A stretch of 64,000 nucleotides of DNA from the NCBI GenBank assembly GCA_015654695.1, contig JAATGJ010000144.1, positions 1 to 64,000 of the forward strand, written 5' to 3'. Shown here in pieces: positions 46,514-57,024 of this stretch. The notes beneath the pieces were generated by a model. It did not search any database. It saw nothing but the letters and a program-made list of their open reading frames with translations, and was not told where the DNA came from. How positions within the stretch are numbered: position 1 is the stretch's first letter; every line of letters starts with the position of its first letter. The DNA is from Chitinophagales bacterium (GTDB taxonomy: Bacteria > Bacteroidota > Bacteroidia > Chitinophagales > Chitinophagaceae). The position numbers were made by a program, and so were the translations under genes.

Positions 46514-46685
46514 GGCCGCGAAGGTAATCAAGATAAGGCACAAGACACAAGAGAAACACAAGGCAGTATAGTAAGTGTATGACAATGCACTTTTTTTATT
46601 ATATTTTATATGCTGAAATCACCTTTCTTTCCGGTAACCTGAATCTTGTTTCTTCTATACTGTTTCATGTACCTTGCAGGCTTTT

Positions 46686-47825
46686 ATGGCAGCATTACAA
46701 TTTCAACTTCAACATACTGACGCAGGGAGTAAGGCAAGAACCGGCAAAATAACTACCGATCATGGTGAGATACTAACTCCTATCTTCATGCCAGTAGGCA
46801 CAACCGGAAGTGTAAAGGCCGTCACCCAACAACAATTGCTCAATGATGTAAAAGCGCAGATCATCCTGGGAAATACCTATCATTTATATTTGCGGCCGGG
46901 ATTGGAAGTATTGGAAAAAGGAGGTGGCCTGCACCATTTCAACGGATGGCATAAACCGATACTGACTGATAGCGGTGGCTACCAGGTTTTTTCACTGGCA
47001 GGCACCCGCAAGATAAAAGAAGAAGGGGTTACTTTCCAATCACATATTGACGGATCAAAACATCTGTTTACACCGGAAATAGTCATGGACATTCAGCGTA
47101 GTATTGGTGGTGATATCATCATGGCCTTTGATGAATGCCCACCCGGAGGTTGTGAATTTACTTATGCCAAAACTTCCCTGGAACTTACGAACCGCTGGCT
47201 GGATCGCTGTTTCGCCCGTTTCAATACTACAGATGATAAATACGGTTATACCCAAAATCTTTTTCCGATAGTACAAGGAGGAACTTACAAAGACCTGCGG
47301 AAGCAATCCTGCGAATATGTTGCTTCCAGAGAGGCAACGGGTAATGCCATTGGTGGCCTGAGTGTTGGCGAGCCAGAGCCCGTGATGTATGAAATTTGCG
47401 AGTGGTGTTGTGATCACTTACCAAAAGAAAAGCCCCGCTACCTGATGGGAGTAGGTACACCCTGGAATATCCTGGAATGTATCGGCATGGGCATTGATAT
47501 GTTTGATTGTGTAATGCCAACGCGTAACGGAAGAAACGCTATGCTTTTTACCACGCGGGGAGTTATTAATATTGATAATAAAAAATGGGAGTTTGATCTT
47601 TCACCGATTGATGAGGGATTAGACTGTGAGACCAGTAATTATTACTCTAAGGCCTATTTACGCCACCTGATGAAATCAAAGGAGATACTTGGGCTTACCA
47701 TTGCCAGTGTTCATAATCTTGCATTGTATTTATGGCTGGTAGGTGAAGCAAGAAAACATATTGAGCAGGGAGATTTTGCCGGATGGAAAAAGGAGATGGT
47801 GGAAATATTGAAACGAAGGCTATAG
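46686..47825 (+). CDS. tgt: Queuine tRNA-guanine transglycosylase
   Basis: Exchanges G34 of tRNAs with GUN anticodons for preQ1. It has 379 residues from ATG 46686; the frame opens four codons earlier at a TTG. Motifs include TPIFMPVGTTGSVKAVT, LTDSGGYQVFSL with the catalytic Asp, IVQGGTYKDLRKQS, IGGLSVGEPEP, YLMGVGTPWNILE and FDCVMPTRNGRN with the nucleophilic Asp. The zinc-binding CxCxxC site is degenerate (LDCETSNYY). The last Leu codon overlaps the stop of the convergent response-regulator gene. Confidence 0.95.
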   Translation: MAALQFQLQHTDAGSKARTGKITTDHGEILTPIFMPVGTTGSVKAVTQQQLLNDVKAQIILGNTYHLYLRPGLEVLEKGGGLHHFNGWHKPILTDSGGYQVFSLAGTRKIKEEGVTFQSHIDGSKHLFTPEIVMDIQRSIGGDIIMAFDECPPGGCEFTYAKTSLELTNRWLDRCFARFNTTDDKYGYTQNLFPIVQGGTYKDLRKQSCEYVASREATGNAIGGLSVGEPEPVMYEICEWCCDHLPKEKPRYLMGVGTPWNILECIGMGIDMFDCVMPTRNGRNAMLFTTRGVINIDNKKWEFDLSPIDEGLDCETSNYYSKAYLRHLMKSKEILGLTIASVHNLALYLWLVGEARKHIEQGDFAGWKKEMVEILKRRL

Positions 47826-48482
47826 CTTGTATAATCCGTATTTGATGGCAAATATTACCAGCCCGATGCGGGATTGCACTTTAAGTTTCTTTAAAAGCTC
47901 ATCCCGGTAATTGTCAACCGTACGGGGGCTTATTTCCATTTTCTGCGCTATTTCTTTATAGGTTATTTCTGTACAGGCCAGTTGCAGAAAGGTCAGTTCA
48001 TTTTCTGTGAGAGAAGTTACCAACGAAACTTCATTTATCTTATGATCTTTTTCGGTAACGTAGTTGAGCATTTTATGGCTCACGAGGTCATTCATAAAAA
48101 AACCAGTGTCGCGGATACTATCCAGCGCCTGCCTGAATACAGCCGGCTTGCTGTCTTTAAGAATATAACCCCTGGCGCCTCTTTTCAGCATGCTGATGAT
48201 AATGGTATCTACATCCATTACGCTCAACACGAGTATTTTTGCAGCGGGGAGATTTTTTTTTATCCATTCAGCGGTTTCCAGTCCATTCATTTCCGGCATG
48301 GTAATATCAAGGAGTACAATATCGGGAGCCGGGAATGTTTTTAACTGATCAATGAATTCTTTTCCGTTGGCAGCTTCAAAGAGTACAGCATATTCTTCAA
48401 ATGAGGTGATTAATGCAGCAAGACCATTACGAAGCAGGGTGTGGTCGTCAACCAATGCGATCTGTGTAATATTGTTAGCCAA
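47820..48482 (-). CDS. LuxR/NarL-family response regulator of the 48-50 kb operon
   Basis: Receiver domain (ITQIALVDDHTLLRNGLAALI, phospho-acceptor Asp59 in IVLLDITMPEMNG, LKDSKPAVFRQAL) followed by a LuxR-type DNA-binding domain (LTENELTFLQLACTEITYKEIAQKMEISPRTVDNYRDELLKKLKVQSRIGLVI). The frame has no ATG near the receiver start. TTG at 48482 gives MANNITQIALVDDH and an eight-base overlap with the kinase stop; a TTG at 48503 is the alternative. It is the last gene of a four-gene operon with its cognate kinase. The stop TAG overlaps the 3' end of tgt. Confidence 0.92.
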   Translation of the reverse strand: MANNITQIALVDDHTLLRNGLAALITSFEEYAVLFEAANGKEFIDQLKTFPAPDIVLLDITMPEMNGLETAEWIKKNLPAAKILVLSVMDVDTIIISMLKRGARGYILKDSKPAVFRQALDSIRDTGFFMNDLVSHKMLNYVTEKDHKINEVSLVTSLTENELTFLQLACTEITYKEIAQKMEISPRTVDNYRDELLKKLKVQSRIGLVIFAIKYGLYKL

Positions 48483-49254
48483 CTTTATCTGTTTTAATAG
48501 CAATGGTTACCAATGTTCCTTTTCCGGGCTCACTGTCAATGGCGATAGTGGCATTGATCATTTTAGCCCGGTTCTCTAAGTTACGTAATCCGGCACCATT
48601 GGAAACAGACTTGCTGTCAAAACCCTTTCCATTATCCTGTATCCAAATTAATAACTGGCCGTTTTGTTTTTCTGTTTCAAAAGATATTGTATCGGCGGCG
48701 GCATGTTTAGTGATATTATTGATCACTTCCTGTATCATGCGGAATAAGATGATAGGTTTGTCATTTCCAAGAGGCGGCAGGTCATCACTTATTTTACAAT
48801 GGGTTGTATATTTCCCGGTATGCTGTAGTTGCTGTAGTAATTTAATTACCGGCAAGTGCCATCCGTTAATGCGTATATGATCTGCATCAAGCGAATGACT
48901 AAGGTTTCGCAGGTCAACAAGTGCTTTTGTCAGGATATCGTCCATCATCGCTATTTTGATGGCATCATCCGGGGCTTTTAGCGTATTAAGATTAATGCTG
49001 ACCAGGCTCAGTACCTGGCCAATATTATCATGGAGCTCCTGGCTGATATGATGAAAGGTCTGCTCCTGTATTTCAAGCTTGGACTGGAGCAATGCTTGCT
49101 CAAATTGTATGTTCATCCTTTCTTTTTCCAGCAGCAGTTTGTTTTTTCTTTTCAGGTAAATCCGGAAAAGCATGAATACGGCCACCATCAGCAGCAATAT
49201 AAAGAGGCTGGAAAAAAGGATAGGCAGAACGAAATCTAGTTTTTCTTTTTGCAT
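48475..49254 (-). CDS. HisKA_3-type sensor histidine kinase
   Basis: About 259 residues from ATG 49254. One membrane helix (VLPILFSSLFILLLMVAVFMLF, about 9-30) is followed by a coiled-coil region and a HisKA_3 dimerisation domain with phospho-acceptor His75 in ISQELHDNIGQVLSLV. The ATPase domain has QEVINNITKHA, WIQDNGKGFD and GAGLRNLENRAKMINA. There is almost no periplasmic sensor, so the upstream membrane protein may sense the signal. It overlaps the upstream membrane-protein gene by 19 bases and the downstream regulator by about eight. Confidence 0.92.
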   Translation of the reverse strand: MQKEKLDFVLPILFSSLFILLLMVAVFMLFRIYLKRKNKLLLEKERMNIQFEQALLQSKLEIQEQTFHHISQELHDNIGQVLSLVSINLNTLKAPDDAIKIAMMDDILTKALVDLRNLSHSLDADHIRINGWHLPVIKLLQQLQHTGKYTTHCKISDDLPPLGNDKPIILFRMIQEVINNITKHAAADTISFETEKQNGQLLIWIQDNGKGFDSKSVSNGAGLRNLENRAKMINATIAIDSEPGKGTLVTIAIKTDKVG

Positions 49255-49892
49255 AAATAAAAAGCGTAGCTGAAGCAACTGTACATGAAAATACTCATTA
49301 CCTGGGGTATTACCTGGTACAGTTTTAGACCGAAAAGAGTAGAATGGTCAGCTACCAAATATTTTTGAAAGTTGATAGAAATACTGACCACGGGATAAAA
49401 AATAACAATACCAATTGTGATCCATACTACGGGACGCCAGTATTTTTCTTCTGCCAGGTTATCCAGGTAAAAAAAACGAAACAGGAACAATATTCCATAG
49501 AAAGTAATGACAAAACCCCGGGCCAGTGTCAGGTAACTACTTGTGGTAACAATGGATTCAAGAAAAAAATAGTTAGCCAGTGTAAAACCAAGATAAGCAA
49601 GCGTAAGCCATATCATTAGCTTACGCAATGGCTCCATAAATGGTATATGATAGTATATCCAGAAAAAAACAACAGCACTAATGGGCCTGTAAATATTATA
49701 AACGACTGCGTTAGATGCAGTATGATATAGTTGATTAATAGTTACAAGGGTAGTTTCCTGGATAAATACATATAAAAGGTATGGAATCAGGATACGGAGA
49801 TGCCTGCTATGAAGCTGCTTTCGGTAAACACCTGCCATTACAGCACTGAAAAGAATGCTGGCCAGGTATGGTAAAGTAAATATCAGGCTCAT
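49236..49892 (-). CDS. Polytopic membrane protein encoded with the kinase
   Basis: A 218-residue protein with about seven hydrophobic segments (for example LIFTLPYLASILFSAVMAGVY, LMIWLTLAYLGFTLANYFFL, GFVITFYGILFLFRFFYL, PVVWITIGIVIFYPVVSI and VMSIFMYSCFSYAFYL). I know no function. The arrangement membrane protein-kinase-regulator with overlapping ends suggests that it provides the sensory input for the poorly sensing kinase. Its start overlaps the stop of the 112-residue gene by one base (TAATG). Confidence 0.8.
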   Translation of the reverse strand: MSLIFTLPYLASILFSAVMAGVYRKQLHSRHLRILIPYLLYVFIQETTLVTINQLYHTASNAVVYNIYRPISAVVFFWIYYHIPFMEPLRKLMIWLTLAYLGFTLANYFFLESIVTTSSYLTLARGFVITFYGILFLFRFFYLDNLAEEKYWRPVVWITIGIVIFYPVVSISINFQKYLVADHSTLFGLKLYQVIPQVMSIFMYSCFSYAFYLCKKKN

Positions 49893-50469: not shown

Positions 50470-50506
50470 CATCTGTCGCCTGTGAGCGATTTACAGGCGG
50501 CAGATG
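50470..50506. repeat. Long hairpin with 14-bp arms
   Basis: CATCTGTCGCCTGT (50470-50483) pairs with ACAGGCGGCAGATG (50493-50506) with one mismatch around a nine-base loop. No T run follows directly. It could be a REP-like palindrome or a structured RNA end. It is part of a 737-base gap with further palindromes, ACCATTAATTAATTGGT (50581-50597) and GTGCAAA/TTTGCAC (50616-50658). Confidence 0.65.
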
Positions 50507-50711: not shown

Positions 50712-50903
50712 AAGCAAAAGATCCCGAAAGAAAAACAGACCGGTAACAAGACTGGCAAATAGTCGGCGTATCTACGAACAATTGCTTCGTGATGGAATTG
50801 ACGTGTTGCTATTATTGACAACGGCCAGGCCATTAATAGCAAGTCTACATGGGATAAAGATGCGAATGTGAACTATGTGTGGAGCGGAGAGGTAATCAGA
50901 TAA
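50712..50903 (+). pseudogene. Decayed coding remnant
   Basis: Protein-like sequence switches between two frames. RRIYEQLLRDGIDV (from about 50764) continues after a one-base shift near 50806 as IIDNGQAINSKSTWDKDANV then NYVWSGEVIR, ending at TAA 50901-50903. A Lys/Gln-rich stretch precedes it in the second frame. The codon use and the ordered residues suggest a former gene broken by indels. I cannot name its family. Confidence 0.35.
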
Positions 50904-50967: not shown

Positions 50968-51888
50968 ATGAGGAAGCTGAGAAAAAGTGAAATACTTTTT
51001 TTGGAAAAACAAAGCCAAAAATTACTTCCCAAATGGAGGAAGGAAATTACAAAGAATATTGTCGGTGTTCATTTTGGTAATAAAATGAAAAAATCGAAAG
51101 AGGGAAGTGTGCTTGCTATTGTATTCCATGTAAAACACAAACTTGAGCATCCGATAAAACCGATACCAAAGTTTGTAAAAGTGAAAATGGAAGACGGTAA
51201 AGTAAAAGACATACCAACAGATGTAATCCAGACAGGGACGACAAAATTATTGTCATTGCACATGGGTGACAAAGCAAAGTCAAGGGAAACGAGTATGGAC
51301 GATTATGGCACAGCTGGTTTATTCATGAAAAAGGGCGCTAACTATTATATGTGCTCAAATATGCATGTTTTAGCACCCCAGTTTATCTCACGTGGAAGTG
51401 TACAAATACCTGAAGGAAGTCAGCGATTAAATGTCAGAATTTATAATAGTGAGGATACAGCTTTTGCCTTTTTAGAAAAAGCCAGTTTTCAATCCATTGA
51501 TCTCGCCATGGCAAAAATTGAAAGACCAAGTTTATTGACTAATAAGATCAGGTCAATTGGCAATATTTCCGGTGAAGCAAATATTGGAGCGATAAAACGG
51601 GGAGAAAGAGTTAGTATTTATGGCGCTACTTCAGGCTTTATGAATGGAACTATTGAAAAACTGAATATTGCGAAGTATGTCGAATACGACGGAAAAGAAA
51701 CATTAATTAGGAATCTGATTGCCATTAAATGTGATGCCACTTTCGGTGACTCTGGAAGCCCCGTTGTATTGCGCGGAATAAATGCTGTAGTAGGTATCCT
51801 TGTAAGCATGGATGATGAATATGTCTACCTTATTACTATCGATACGATTAAAACATTTACTAAGGCTCAACTAATAATTATACACTAA
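50968..51888 (+). CDS. Trypsin-fold serine peptidase without signal peptide
   Basis: A 306-residue protein. The catalytic triad can be placed: His133 in CSNMHVLA, Asp178 in SIDLAMAKI, and Ser262 in FGDSGSPVV, the chymotrypsin-family signature. Residues 30-90 (NIVGVHFGNKMKKSKEGSVLAIVFHV...IPTDVIQTG) resemble the N-terminal module of bacterial Nal1-like trypsin-fold proteins. There is no signal peptide or membrane helix, so it should act in the cytoplasm unless exported otherwise. It is the first gene of a tight operon with two exported proteins (11- and 5-base gaps). Confidence 0.8.
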   Translation: MRKLRKSEILFLEKQSQKLLPKWRKEITKNIVGVHFGNKMKKSKEGSVLAIVFHVKHKLEHPIKPIPKFVKVKMEDGKVKDIPTDVIQTGTTKLLSLHMGDKAKSRETSMDDYGTAGLFMKKGANYYMCSNMHVLAPQFISRGSVQIPEGSQRLNVRIYNSEDTAFAFLEKASFQSIDLAMAKIERPSLLTNKIRSIGNISGEANIGAIKRGERVSIYGATSGFMNGTIEKLNIAKYVEYDGKETLIRNLIAIKCDATFGDSGSPVVLRGINAVVGILVSMDDEYVYLITIDTIKTFTKAQLIIIH

Positions 51889-51899
51889 AACATACAATT

Positions 51900-53333
51900 A
51901 TGAGATTCTTTTTTCTTGCAGTTTTTACTGTTTGTCTGTTACAAGCATATTCGCAGGAATTCAACTTTAAACTAACAGAGGACGGCTTTCCGGAGAAACT
52001 GAAAGAAGGAGTAAAGGTCCCGCTAAAGGAAAAAAAAATATTTTTACAAGAACCAAGTGACAATGGCAAAAAATATTATTTACTTCTGAAAACCGGCGTG
52101 GAACTTGAGTTTACAAGCTCAGATGAAAGCAAATTTATACCATTAACCCTCGAAAATGCAGACCCTCGAATAAAACCTAAAATTCTCAATGAAGAGAAAG
52201 AAACTTTAATAACATTTGAATTCACTGCGGAAGAAGACGTTACTGATGATGATCCTGATGGAGACAATAGTCAGAAAAATGGCCCAACAGAAACGGCTCA
52301 GGACATTTTTAATTCTTTGTTCAATGTAACCGCTAAGCCATATGGTCTAATTGTTAATTCAGGAGAAACAAAATTTAAGGGCCCAACATATGTTCATATT
52401 TTCCTGGACCAATATGGCAGTCTGCTTAATTCAACGGTTCCACAAGGTGTTTCTGAAAAACAGTACGTAGTACATGTATTGTATGTTGCCCCGGTTAATA
52501 ACCGGGAAATTTTCTATTCAGTCAGGGAAAACAAAAGCTCCTTTAATCCTGCCCTGAGGTTTAATAATGAAGATTTTAGAAAAATAATTGGCGGAAGTAC
52601 TTTAGGAATAGGCGCAAAAAATAAGCCCACCCTGGACTGGTATCACCAAGAAATACTTTTAAGTACATCTACCACAGATATCGAATTTGAGCTTTTTCTC
52701 ATTGCAGTAAAAAAAACCAATATCTATGACTTTGAAAAGAAGAGCCTGAGCAAATACACTATTAAAATGAGCCCAACCTATCATGGGACTTTTGATGTAG
52801 GACTTATTTACTCCAATTTGGAAAACCCGAATTATGAACTTGTTACATCTCCTGTTGATAATACTAAAAACGTGGCAAAAAGAACTAACCTCGGCAGGCG
52901 GGGCATTATTACAGCAATGGCTACGTTTTACACTTCGCCGGTTGTCCTGATCGAAAAATTTCTAATGAAAAAAGAAATACCTGAATATAAGCTGTATGGA
53001 AGAAATATGCTCGACGATCATGCTTGGTATGAAAGAATATATCCCACTATCGGGATCGGATTCACCGACAAAACGTTTGAAAATCTTTTTTATGGGTTTA
53101 ACTGGGAGTTTGCAAGAGGCGGTTCTTTTTTCGTAGGCTGGCACCTGGGTAAAATTAACACATTAAACGTCGGAGGCAATTTCATATTCGAAGAAACCTT
53201 TATCACAGAATCAGAATTTAAACTTAAAAAAAATGACAAATGGGCAACTTCAACAGCAATTGGCGTTAAGCTGGATGTCAAACTGGTTTTAGGCCTCTTC
53301 GGGCAAGGAAATAATTCAAATAATCAACAATAA
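51900..53333 (+). CDS. Exported protein of unknown family, second gene of the protease operon
   Basis: A 477-residue protein with signal peptide RFFFLAVFTVCLLQAYSQ. An N-terminal domain (FNFKLTEDGFPEKLKEGVKVPLKEKKIFLQEPS) is followed by an acidic linker EEDVTDDDPDGDNSQ at about 110-124 and a central region. The C-terminal part is rich in alternating aromatic/glycine strands (YPTIGIGFTDKTFENLFYGFNWEF, GSFFVGWHLGKINTLNVGGNFIFEETF), suggesting outer-membrane association. I recognise no family. It is probably co-transcribed with the protease gene 11 bases upstream. Confidence 0.72.
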   Translation: MRFFFLAVFTVCLLQAYSQEFNFKLTEDGFPEKLKEGVKVPLKEKKIFLQEPSDNGKKYYLLLKTGVELEFTSSDESKFIPLTLENADPRIKPKILNEEKETLITFEFTAEEDVTDDDPDGDNSQKNGPTETAQDIFNSLFNVTAKPYGLIVNSGETKFKGPTYVHIFLDQYGSLLNSTVPQGVSEKQYVVHVLYVAPVNNREIFYSVRENKSSFNPALRFNNEDFRKIIGGSTLGIGAKNKPTLDWYHQEILLSTSTTDIEFELFLIAVKKTNIYDFEKKSLSKYTIKMSPTYHGTFDVGLIYSNLENPNYELVTSPVDNTKNVAKRTNLGRRGIITAMATFYTSPVVLIEKFLMKKEIPEYKLYGRNMLDDHAWYERIYPTIGIGFTDKTFENLFYGFNWEFARGGSFFVGWHLGKINTLNVGGNFIFEETFITESEFKLKKNDKWATSTAIGVKLDVKLVLGLFGQGNNSNNQQ

Positions 53334-53338
53334 TAATT

Positions 53339-53848
53339 ATGAAATCCTTCTTTCCTACAATTTTGGTACTTGCATCAGGTCTCATTCTTCTGTCAGGTAA
53401 CATTGCAAAATCAGATAAAGAGGATGATAAAACAGATGCTTACCTGCTTGGTAAAGCGAAACTGCTCAATGAATCTAATTTATGCGAAGAGATAGAAGCC
53501 GCCTATCGCAGTCAGCAGGCAAGACTGGAATTAATAAGCCATGTTCCTGAATTGAAAGGCAAACCCGCATTTAATGATCTGACAAAGGCTATTCAATTTA
53601 ACCTTGAAAAACTTGATTGCATTCAAAAGAAACAAATTGAATTTTGTTCATGGAACCTGGAAATCACTGACCCTGTCAGTTATAAAAAATATTCTTCTCC
53701 AATGAATCTTTATCTTATTTCCATTTTATCAGACGAACAGTTAAAACAAATGACAAAAGATATGCCCCCTGGTATGCGTGACAATTTTTTAGCTTATCAA
53801 AAACAAATAACGGAATTGAAAAAGTATTTCAGCAAAAGAAAGGAATAA
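53339..53848 (+). CDS. Exported helical protein, third gene of the protease operon
   Basis: A 169-residue protein with signal peptide FFPTILVLASGLILLSGNIA. The mature part is helical and charged (LCEEIEAAYRSQQARLELISHV, KAIQFNLEKLDCIQKKQIEFC), with three Cys that could form a disulfide. It ends with ITELKKYFSKRK. No family is recognised. It starts five bases after the preceding gene. The 375-base gap that follows (53849-54223) contains no gene I can see, only repeat-like AAATCTGTGAAAATTCGTC (about 54107-54125). Confidence 0.7.
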   Translation: MKSFFPTILVLASGLILLSGNIAKSDKEDDKTDAYLLGKAKLLNESNLCEEIEAAYRSQQARLELISHVPELKGKPAFNDLTKAIQFNLEKLDCIQKKQIEFCSWNLEITDPVSYKKYSSPMNLYLISILSDEQLKQMTKDMPPGMRDNFLAYQKQITELKKYFSKRKE

Positions 53849-54223: not shown

Positions 54224-55321
54224 ATGAACAAAATAGACTGGTACATACTAAAAAAGCTCCTGGTTACTTTTTTCTTTTGCATGATGCTGTTTACCGTTAT
54301 AGCTGTAGCAGTTGACAGCAGCGAGAAAACGGATGATTTTGTAAACACGGGTCTTAGTTCACTGCAAATCATCAGGCAATATTATTTTGGATTTATTCCT
54401 TTTATCTGGGGACTTCTTTTCCCCCTGTTTGTTTTTATCGCTGTCATCTTTTTTACCAGCCGCATGGCAGCCCGTTCAGAGATCATTGCCATATTGGCGA
54501 GCGGCACCAGCTACAATCGTATGCTGCGGCCGTATATAATCGGTGGCAGCTTATTGGCATTACTGCTTTGGTTTGGCAGCCGCTACCTGATTCCCAAAGC
54601 CAACGAAATCAAGAGCCGTTTTCAAACTACGTATATTGACAAGAGCGATCCTATGAAGGGTCAGCGCTTTGGTGAGTGCTGGAATTGTTTTTACCGCCGC
54701 ATAGACCCGACTACCTATATTGGTATCAGGGGTTATGATACTGCCACAAAATCGGCCAGTTCTTTCTTCATGGAAAGGATAAAAGATGATAAAGTCGTTT
54801 ACAACCTGCGTGCAAATTCTATACGGTGGGATACTGCTGTAAAAAAGTGGAAGGTCTCTACTGTAACGATAAGAACATTGAATAGCATGAAGGAAACAGT
54901 GAAAGTATATCCTGAACTGACGATCCACATGAGCCTGAAACCGGAAGAGCTCCGTAAAGATGAATACCTGAAAGATAAACTTACCACCCCGGAACTCGTT
55001 GCCTTTATAAAGCGGGAAGAAATGAGAGGATCAGAAGGATTAAGCGCATTAAAAGTAGAACAGTACAGGCGCACGGCAACTCCTGTTACTGTTTTATTAC
55101 TTACGCTGATAGGCGTTGTCATTGCAAGCCGCAAAAATCGCGGTGGCAGTGGTATGCACCTGGCCCTTGGTATTGTTATCGCAGCACTTTTTATAATAGC
55201 CGACAGGTTCTCTACTGTATTTGCTACCAAAAGCAATTTCCCTCCCTTGCTGGCAGCCTGGCTCCCTAATATTGCATTCTCAATAGTCGCTTACTGGATG
55301 TACCGGCGAACACCTAAGTAA
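54224..55321 (+). CDS. LptF/LptG family lipopolysaccharide export permease
   Basis: A 365-residue YjgP/YjgQ-type permease. Three N-terminal membrane helices (LLVTFFFCMMLFTVIAVAVD, YYFGFIPFIWGLLFPLFVFIAVIFF, YIIGGSLLALLLWFGSRYLI) and three C-terminal ones (TPVTVLLLTLIGVVIA and following) bracket a periplasmic jellyroll-type region. The SEIIAILASGTSYNRMLRPY coupling-helix segment is typical. With LptB and LptC partners elsewhere, it extracts LPS from the inner membrane. LptF and LptG cannot be told apart here; LptG is a guess. Confidence 0.9.
   Translation: MNKIDWYILKKLLVTFFFCMMLFTVIAVAVDSSEKTDDFVNTGLSSLQIIRQYYFGFIPFIWGLLFPLFVFIAVIFFTSRMAARSEIIAILASGTSYNRMLRPYIIGGSLLALLLWFGSRYLIPKANEIKSRFQTTYIDKSDPMKGQRFGECWNCFYRRIDPTTYIGIRGYDTATKSASSFFMERIKDDKVVYNLRANSIRWDTAVKKWKVSTVTIRTLNSMKETVKVYPELTIHMSLKPEELRKDEYLKDKLTTPELVAFIKREEMRGSEGLSALKVEQYRRTATPVTVLLLTLIGVVIASRKNRGGSGMHLALGIVIAALFIIADRFSTVFATKSNFPPLLAAWLPNIAFSIVAYWMYRRTPK

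Positions 55322-56950: not shown

Positions 56951-57024
<74 letters not shown>

Follow-up and report, generated by a model that had tools for sequence, protein, structure and literature searches.

The locus raises the question of whether three adjoining genes on the plus strand of the window (the 64,000-bp stretch of Chitinophagaceae DNA analyzed here) act together, and what such a unit might do for the cell. An earlier note had read them as an accessory conflict or envelope-processing module of three genes: a trypsin-fold peptidase without an export signal followed by two exported proteins. The three ORFs and the gaps between them (11 bases between P1 and P2, 5 bases between P2 and P3) were borne out (Table 1), and comparison with related genomes points to a real, conserved, accessory and apparently undescribed module that includes the first two genes.

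Table 1. Coordinates of the genes and gene remnant discussed, in window positions.
Feature	Position	Strand	Description
P1 ORF	50968-51888	+	306 aa; predicted signal-less, NAL1-like trypsin-fold serine peptidase
P2 ORF	51900-53333	+	477 aa; putative exported partner, beta-rich, with acidic linker and putative barrel-like C-terminal domain
P3 ORF	53339-53848	+	169 aa; putative small exported helical protein, orphan
Amidase remnant	50725..50894	+	tblastn; pieces 50725-50793 and 50805-50894, colinear, middle missing
Tgt	46674..47825	+	left border of variable site
LptF-like permease	54224..55321	+	right border of variable site; match in 114/117 family genomes

P1 is predicted to be a serine peptidase of the trypsin/chymotrypsin fold, combining the double-barrel fold with the catalytic triad. 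It matches the Pfam Trypsin family (21.5 bits, cut-off 20.6), and the triad (His133/Asp178/Ser262) is real: H, D and S occupy these columns in all 22 trypsin-type peptidases of the operons described below, P1 included, although the members aligned to P1 are only 20-41% identical to it. Since the triad is intact in every one of these members, proteolysis evidently matters for the trypsin-type module. Residues 113-305 of the P1 model (pLDDT 72) superpose on Streptomyces protease B (3sgb_E, VIA-align Z 18.1, rmsd 2.5 Å, 164 aligned residues), which Foldseek also matches, and HtrA/DegP-type proteases are further structural neighbors by VIA-align. The Nal1-like module seen earlier in the sequence stands at the level of the fold, the top two PDB matches by Foldseek being chains of rice NARROW LEAF 1 (NAL1, E 2e-8), the best-scoring solved fold by that measure; but NAL1 is a plant protein, superposes poorly over the whole chain (rmsd ~22 Å) and is absent among the best 50 VIA-align rows for P1. 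The only PHROG match of P1 is a "protease" family (phrog_20754, E 2.6e-12), and GTDB contigs, plasmids, phages and viral contigs yielded no relatives of P1, though genome searches did find some.

By a crude hydropathy test, used in place of a signal-peptide predictor, P1 has no N-terminal hydrophobic stretch and P2 and P3 each have one, in keeping with the earlier assignment of export. The acidic linker previously ascribed to P2 is visible in its translation (approximately residues 111-122). The AlphaFold model of P2 has a pLDDT of 54 overall and is best at approximately residues 300-460; Foldseek gave no match at E 0.001 or better, most of its best matches being outer-membrane barrels, and the C-terminal domain may be an outer-membrane barrel. 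VIA-align of residues 145-291 gave Ig-like rows (COPI leaf, Z 7.0; MALT1, Z ~6) and that of residues 34-112 gave rows at Z ~5, all within the range (Z <8) that is common by chance. P2 and P3 have no match in Pfam, NCBIfam, PADLOC or PHROGs, and P2 has none in viral contigs. The compartments assigned here to parts of the module are deduced from sequence features and this low-confidence model.

A P2 profile identified six loci in GTDB contigs. Three are on Chitinophagaceae MAG contigs, and the others come from Mucilaginibacter galii and from one MAG each of Flavobacterium and Prolixibacteraceae. In four of the six, the gene upstream of the P2 relative encodes a P1-type peptidase and stops 2-11 bp short of it; in the fifth (L117, genome G189) a transposase-like gene, recognized by eye, lies between the two; in the sixth (L119, genome G208) the contig opens with the P2 relative, and a P1-type peptidase and the beginning of an exported protein are found on a second contig of this genome, which ends with the same 15 bases as L119. 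Each of the six public relatives of P2 fits the order P1-P2 (interrupted by the transposase in one, spread over two contig ends in another), and this order is kept across P2 proteins of only 18-45% identity. This gene-order survey, set beforehand as the test that could refute the proposal, found the P1-P2 order conserved in other genera and families, and the conserved unit by sequence comparison is this pair, not the trio of the earlier reading. P3 was rejected as a core part because none of 297 other genomes of the order contains a match to it; it also has no BLAST match in four P2-relative loci or in four further loci, and may be an orphan passenger in the operon.

In the window's family 29 of 294 genomes matched a P1 profile, and across the phylum 28 of 395 did, with three genomes common to both sets; nine of the ten members used to build the profile are themselves in the operon count, so that their scores are circular. 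Many of the phylum-wide matches look like generic trypsins. In the 29 family neighborhoods, all of which were read, an exported gene directly follows the peptidase in 16 and follows after an insertion in G189; outside the family, 13 loci were read (25 matching genomes) and one, G693, has a direct exported partner. Including four found through P2, 46 loci have a P1-profile match, of which 21 have the partner directly downstream and one has it after the interruption; 24 loci were left out of the operon count for having no direct exported partner, and these include secreted trypsins, multi-domain proteins, a truncated copy (L018) and a deletion chimera (L087). Re-scanning of another fetched locus, L111, yielded no match to the profile.

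Many of the operons also encode an inner-membrane protein (three hydrophobic segments by eye), fused to the peptidase in four operons and encoded by a separate upstream gene in others, for a total of 20 of 33. Its profile matched 38 of 288 family genomes, of which 31 were read (the seven left out were weak or partial matches), and led to a second operon form, in which a subtilisin-type enzyme occupies the trypsin slot and a large exported partner still follows. Of 20 loci fetched through this protein, ten have the subtilisin form and ten have no peptidase-partner pair; in some of the latter (L231, L244) a wall hydrolase adjoins the inner-membrane gene. The inner-membrane protein has one distant match in viral contigs (29% identity), without other parts of the module.

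The collection comprises 33 peptidase-partner operons, 22 of trypsin type and 11 of subtilisin type, the latter assigned by Pfam in ten cases and in L240 by a profile built in the analysis, which includes the shared N-terminal module and thus cross-matches other enzymes having that module. The partner (cut by a contig end in L025) starts -60 to +15 bp from the peptidase in 32 of 33 operons, with a median gap of 6 and the insertion case as the exception; because operons were chosen for having a partner, these figures describe spacing and do not test linkage. Among 259 same-strand neighbor pairs in the operon loci, 37 combine such a gap with a downstream exported gene of at least 340 aa, and up to 31 of these are peptidase-partner pairs. 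The N-terminal part of the peptidase is absent in the window, G189, L116 and L118; other peptidases begin with an SH3-like module or several transmembrane segments (both by eye; one such N-terminal module has no SH3 match in Pfam) or with the fused inner-membrane protein, and two proteins fuse the peptidase to SLATT_2 above the Pfam cut-off. By a simple motif search, four of the 11 subtilisin-type enzymes contain the full set of three catalytic motifs and another four contain none of them; because of these incomplete motifs, some members may be inactive or divergent.

The aligned partners fall into four sequence types. The P2 type shares a C-terminal domain with the type of L084, L085, L089 and L099 (profile comparison, probability 83%) and does not align with the other two types, nor does A8 align with A9, in profile comparisons that covered all but two of the type pairs. 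Partner type A8 accompanies both trypsin and subtilisin (L020 versus L241, 39% identity over 629 aa), and therefore partner and peptidase have evidently been exchanged separately. Against PDB sequences, the A5 profile had no match and the A8 profile had matches only at E 0.076 or worse.

In nine of the 33 operons a wall hydrolase was recognized on the same strand, at most 200 bp away: GH25 in L020, L025 and L234-L237, CHAP in L019 and L092, and an amidase in L120. The wall hydrolases of the operon loci have no signal-like N-termini, a hallmark of phage endolysins, and the three that were scanned match phage endolysin families (PHROGs). One inner-membrane protein and two four-segment proteins scanned matched no phage family in PHROGs, holins included; small holins are often missed by profiles. 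Four of the 33 operons, including that of the window, form a compact sub-type that has no inner-membrane gene and in which no intact wall hydrolase was recognized. SLATT, caspase, patatin and FRG domains are found in related loci.

Different versions of the module occupy the same chromosomal sites. G058 and G141, which are two species of one genus, have it between the same flanking genes, which we take to encode YidC-like, CBS and ribosomal S1-like proteins (75%, 82% and 94% identical, respectively), and within the module the inner-membrane protein is 33% and the partner 39% identical, while the peptidase is trypsin-type in one genome and subtilisin-type in the other. The region upstream of the gene that we call LptF was read in 42 genomes (at least four sites, in G260, G059, G007 and G025, were ended by contig ends), and Tgt, presumably queuine tRNA-ribosyltransferase, is the next gene of at least 75 aa in 12 of them. 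A peptidase-partner operon directly precedes LptF in three: the window, G048 (trypsin-type with an 845-aa partner; the contig begins inside the peptidase, leaving the left border outside it) and G027 (inner-membrane protein, subtilisin-type enzyme and 664-aa partner, with Tgt on the left); the site holds different module versions in three genera. Genomes of the same genus have other contents there: a papain-like peptidase, a peptidoglycan-binding protein and a patatin (G086); amidase and FRG genes, the left border being beyond the region read (G163); and an 895-aa membrane protein with no Pfam match (G215), for which a "patatin-like" label given by eye was dropped for lack of Pfam support. There was no module upstream of LptF in 20 more distant genomes.

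The GC content of P1, P2 and P3 together is 36.0%, versus a mean of 41.2%, and is below that of all 255 sampled 2,880-bp windows, which suggests that the three genes were imported. The decayed gene that had been noticed beside them is the remnant of an N-acetylmuramoyl-L-alanine amidase (wall amidase) with an SH3-like end (named by eye; Pfam SH3 matches of the amidase end are sub-threshold). With an intact amidase from a same-genus genome (L162:749-1543) as the tblastn query against the whole window, the first piece is 61% identical over 23 aa (E 0.001) and the second 63% over 30 aa (E 4e-7); the query has a relative (L120:7269-8069, Pfam Amidase_2) that is 58% identical to it. Intact copies of this amidase lie before LptF in G163 and, in Prolixibacteraceae L120, next to the peptidase on its upstream side; because the pieces match it, the window once carried amidase, peptidase and partner, its present copy being a compact version that has lost the amidase. 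Inverted repeats are present (e.g., 50470-50506), but terminator-like hairpins are no commoner than in shuffles (4 versus a mean of 3.6), and sigma-70 and terminator scans were at chance level. The accessory reading of the earlier note thus retains the conserved order, the exchange of parts at sites, the low GC content and the SLATT, caspase, patatin and FRG domains nearby, and loses P3 and the hairpins.

We tentatively propose that P1-P2 is a compact version of an exchangeable Bacteroidota envelope module that serves as a triggered self-lysis (suicide) device, the reading that we rank first, although with less than even credence. Its parts, their order and exchange, the intact triad and the remnant are sequence observations, to which we add location, trigger, partner cleavage and lysis by inference. 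At rest, the hydrolases would be held on the cytoplasmic side, apart from the wall and the partner. Phage infection or membrane damage would be the probable trigger, opening or reorganizing the inner membrane; the wall hydrolase, where present, would then reach peptidoglycan, and the peptidase would cleave its exported partner or a different envelope protein, with lysis or death of the cell as the outcome. The window would represent a protease-partner-only version. Because the wall hydrolases have no export signal, they would need passage across the inner membrane before they could act, and together with an unexported peptidase and its exported neighbor they make a compartment-safe triggered device the simplest account.

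Consistent with self-lysis are the P1-P2 order, the partner spacing, the intact triads, the enzyme swap, the endolysin-like hydrolases, the remnant and the site variants. Against it, a wall hydrolase accompanies only 9 of 33 operons and is intact in none of the compact sub-type, the scanned membrane proteins match no holin or other phage family, all three catalytic motifs occur in only 4 of 11 subtilisin-type members, 10 of 20 further inner-membrane-protein loci have no peptidase-partner pair, and the P2 barrel comes from a low-confidence model, its place in the outer membrane being deduced. In four operons the peptidase, being fused to the inner-membrane protein, presumably cannot pass freely to the periplasm. 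A bolder form of the proposal, which we consider rather doubtful, is an undescribed class of suicide system in which protease and exported partner would form a compartment-gated zymogen pair across the inner membrane, fuller forms with an endolysin-like hydrolase would take the envelope apart from all sides, and the catalytic part (trypsin, subtilisin, perhaps papain or phospholipase) would be interchangeable at fixed chromosomal sites.

The main rival, also on the unlikely side, is a sensor relay, in which the exported partner would sense phage or damage, the inner-membrane part would transmit the signal, and the cytosolic peptidase or swapped enzyme would act on a cytosolic target. The fusions of the peptidase to the inner-membrane protein (four operons) and to SLATT_2 (two) agree with it, as do the caspase, patatin and FRG genes in related loci and the several partner types in one position, as expected of varied sensors; because wall hydrolases occur in a minority of operons (24 of 33 have none recognized nearby), self-lysis was weighted lower and the relay higher. 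The endolysin-like hydrolases of the other nine and the remnant in the window nevertheless point to the envelope as target, and a relay needs trans-periplasmic contact, here a supposition. An interbacterial weapon, whose enzymes would be released or delivered against neighbors with the exported proteins as export parts or immunity proteins, is improbable: lysozyme, amidase, protease, phospholipase and FRG domains, all typical of antibacterial effectors, are present, but the enzymes have no signal peptides and no secretion-system, trafficking or immunity gene was recognized by eye in the neighborhoods read. Ordinary envelope maintenance, with processing or degradation of the partner by the peptidase, is equally improbable; HtrA/DegP-type proteases, the structural neighbors of P1, do perform envelope quality control, and peptidase and partner are tightly coupled, but the peptidase has no export signal, the distribution is patchy (P1 profile in 29/294 and inner-membrane protein in 38/288 family genomes), parts are swapped at fixed sites, and broken copies exist. 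That the three window genes are chance neighbors without a functional link is very improbable, since only the orphan P3 speaks for it and the P1-P2 order, kept despite 18-45% identity among P2 proteins, already contradicts it for that pair.

If true, the self-lysis proposal would extend protease-driven bacterial immunity by a branch directed at the envelope, and a group of exported Bacteroidota proteins that are now orphans would gain a role. Because trypsin- and subtilisin-type enzymes replace each other naturally within a single operon frame, the system can be tested directly: the control logic must reside in the parts that the versions have in common. Its logic would resemble that of phage holin-endolysin-spanin cassettes, which combine a signal-less wall hydrolase, an inner-membrane protein and an exported envelope protein, with a protease added. 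Some operons place similar components close together; unlike the cassettes, they are chromosomal, the peptidase is their constant part, and the scanned membrane proteins match no phage family. The signal-less endolysin, a trait of such cassettes, is found in 9 of 33 related operons and in the window as a remnant only.

The earlier statement that no described system has this architecture holds for the libraries and literature searched: P1, P2 and P3 matched no PADLOC-DB 2.0.0 family at E 1 or better, the inner-membrane protein and one partner scanned matched no PADLOC model, and the architecture is absent from those scans and from the literature searched, mostly outside subscription journals. 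Among described systems, the conflict systems of Kaur et al. 2020 (PMC7159879), in the part of that paper available to us, comprise variable operons with peptidases of trypsin, caspase and subtilisin type, SLATT, alpha/beta hydrolase-caspase pairs and effectors that attack peptidoglycan, all of which they share with the loci here. They differ in having MoxR-vWA, GTPase, STAND or NucA cores, and that part describes no exported partner; no such core was recognized by eye among the ORFs listed for the window and its relatives, selected ones of which were profile-scanned. According to the accessible portion of PMC12799240, a trypsin-type protease activates a separate MBL nuclease partner, the genes traveling together and being exchanged between systems, much as P1-P2 pairs a trypsin-type protease with a separate, co-traveling, exchangeable partner gene; there, however, the nuclease is typically upstream and acts on DNA, whereas here the partner is downstream and exported, and immediately upstream of P1 there is no MBL-fold nuclease but the amidase remnant. 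The CARD-NLR system LypABC (PMC13236601, available in part) requires trypsin-like peptidase activity for cell lysis, as the proposed lysis here would; it differs in its NLR-like ATPase and CARD-like domain, which were not recognized here, and the available part describes no exported partner. The one subtilisin-type enzyme scanned (L168) matches the PADLOC "subtilase" model (E 3e-12) and IetS (E 1e-4).

The first part of the peptidase and a partner-like C-terminal domain occupy a single open frame in G015 (L087:6256-7230), apparently a decayed operon, and in G189 the peptidase and partner are separated by a transposase-like gene (L015:8646-9818). At locus L023, a 242-aa trypsin-type gene has neither the N-terminal module nor an exported partner, and a 1175-aa protein is encoded immediately 5' of it (L023:3300-7557).

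A two-component cassette is close to P1-type (signal-less trypsin-fold) peptidases in three genera (see table), and is also carried at the window's variable site just upstream of LptF by P1-less genomes (L160, L163, L167 and L169).

Caspase-domain and FRG-like genes were identified in related loci. Downstream of the P1-P2 (peptidase and exported partner) pair of a Prolixibacteraceae MAG (L120:11940-14360), a 476-aa gene, whose product resembles an alpha/beta hydrolase by eye and matched no Pfam family, precedes a caspase-domain gene (Pfam Peptidase_C14). Upstream of LptF in a same-genus genome (L162:1563-6661), FRG-like genes adjoin an amidase; the first matches Pfam FRG and the PADLOC candidate PDC-S15, and two more were assigned by eye.

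The enzyme-sized proteins in the wall-hydrolase position of two subtilisin-type operons (related operons with a subtilisin-type enzyme in the trypsin slot) matched no Pfam family. Close to peptidoglycan-related genes, two loci (L163:3708-9344; L231:5977-9338) each carry one gene for a small lipoprotein-like product, 146-153 aa long, and another for a ~110-aa helical protein, an arrangement reminiscent of a lysis cassette.

Coordinates of neighbouring features
Feature	Location	Remark
Response regulator, histidine kinase, multi-pass membrane protein	window 47820-49892	
Same cassette	L017:9281-11145	
Same cassette	L023:7566-9764	
tRNA gene	window 56951-57024	downstream of citrate synthase; Rfam
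305-aa protein	L241:6084-7001	wall-hydrolase position
298-aa protein	L242:5887-6783	wall-hydrolase position
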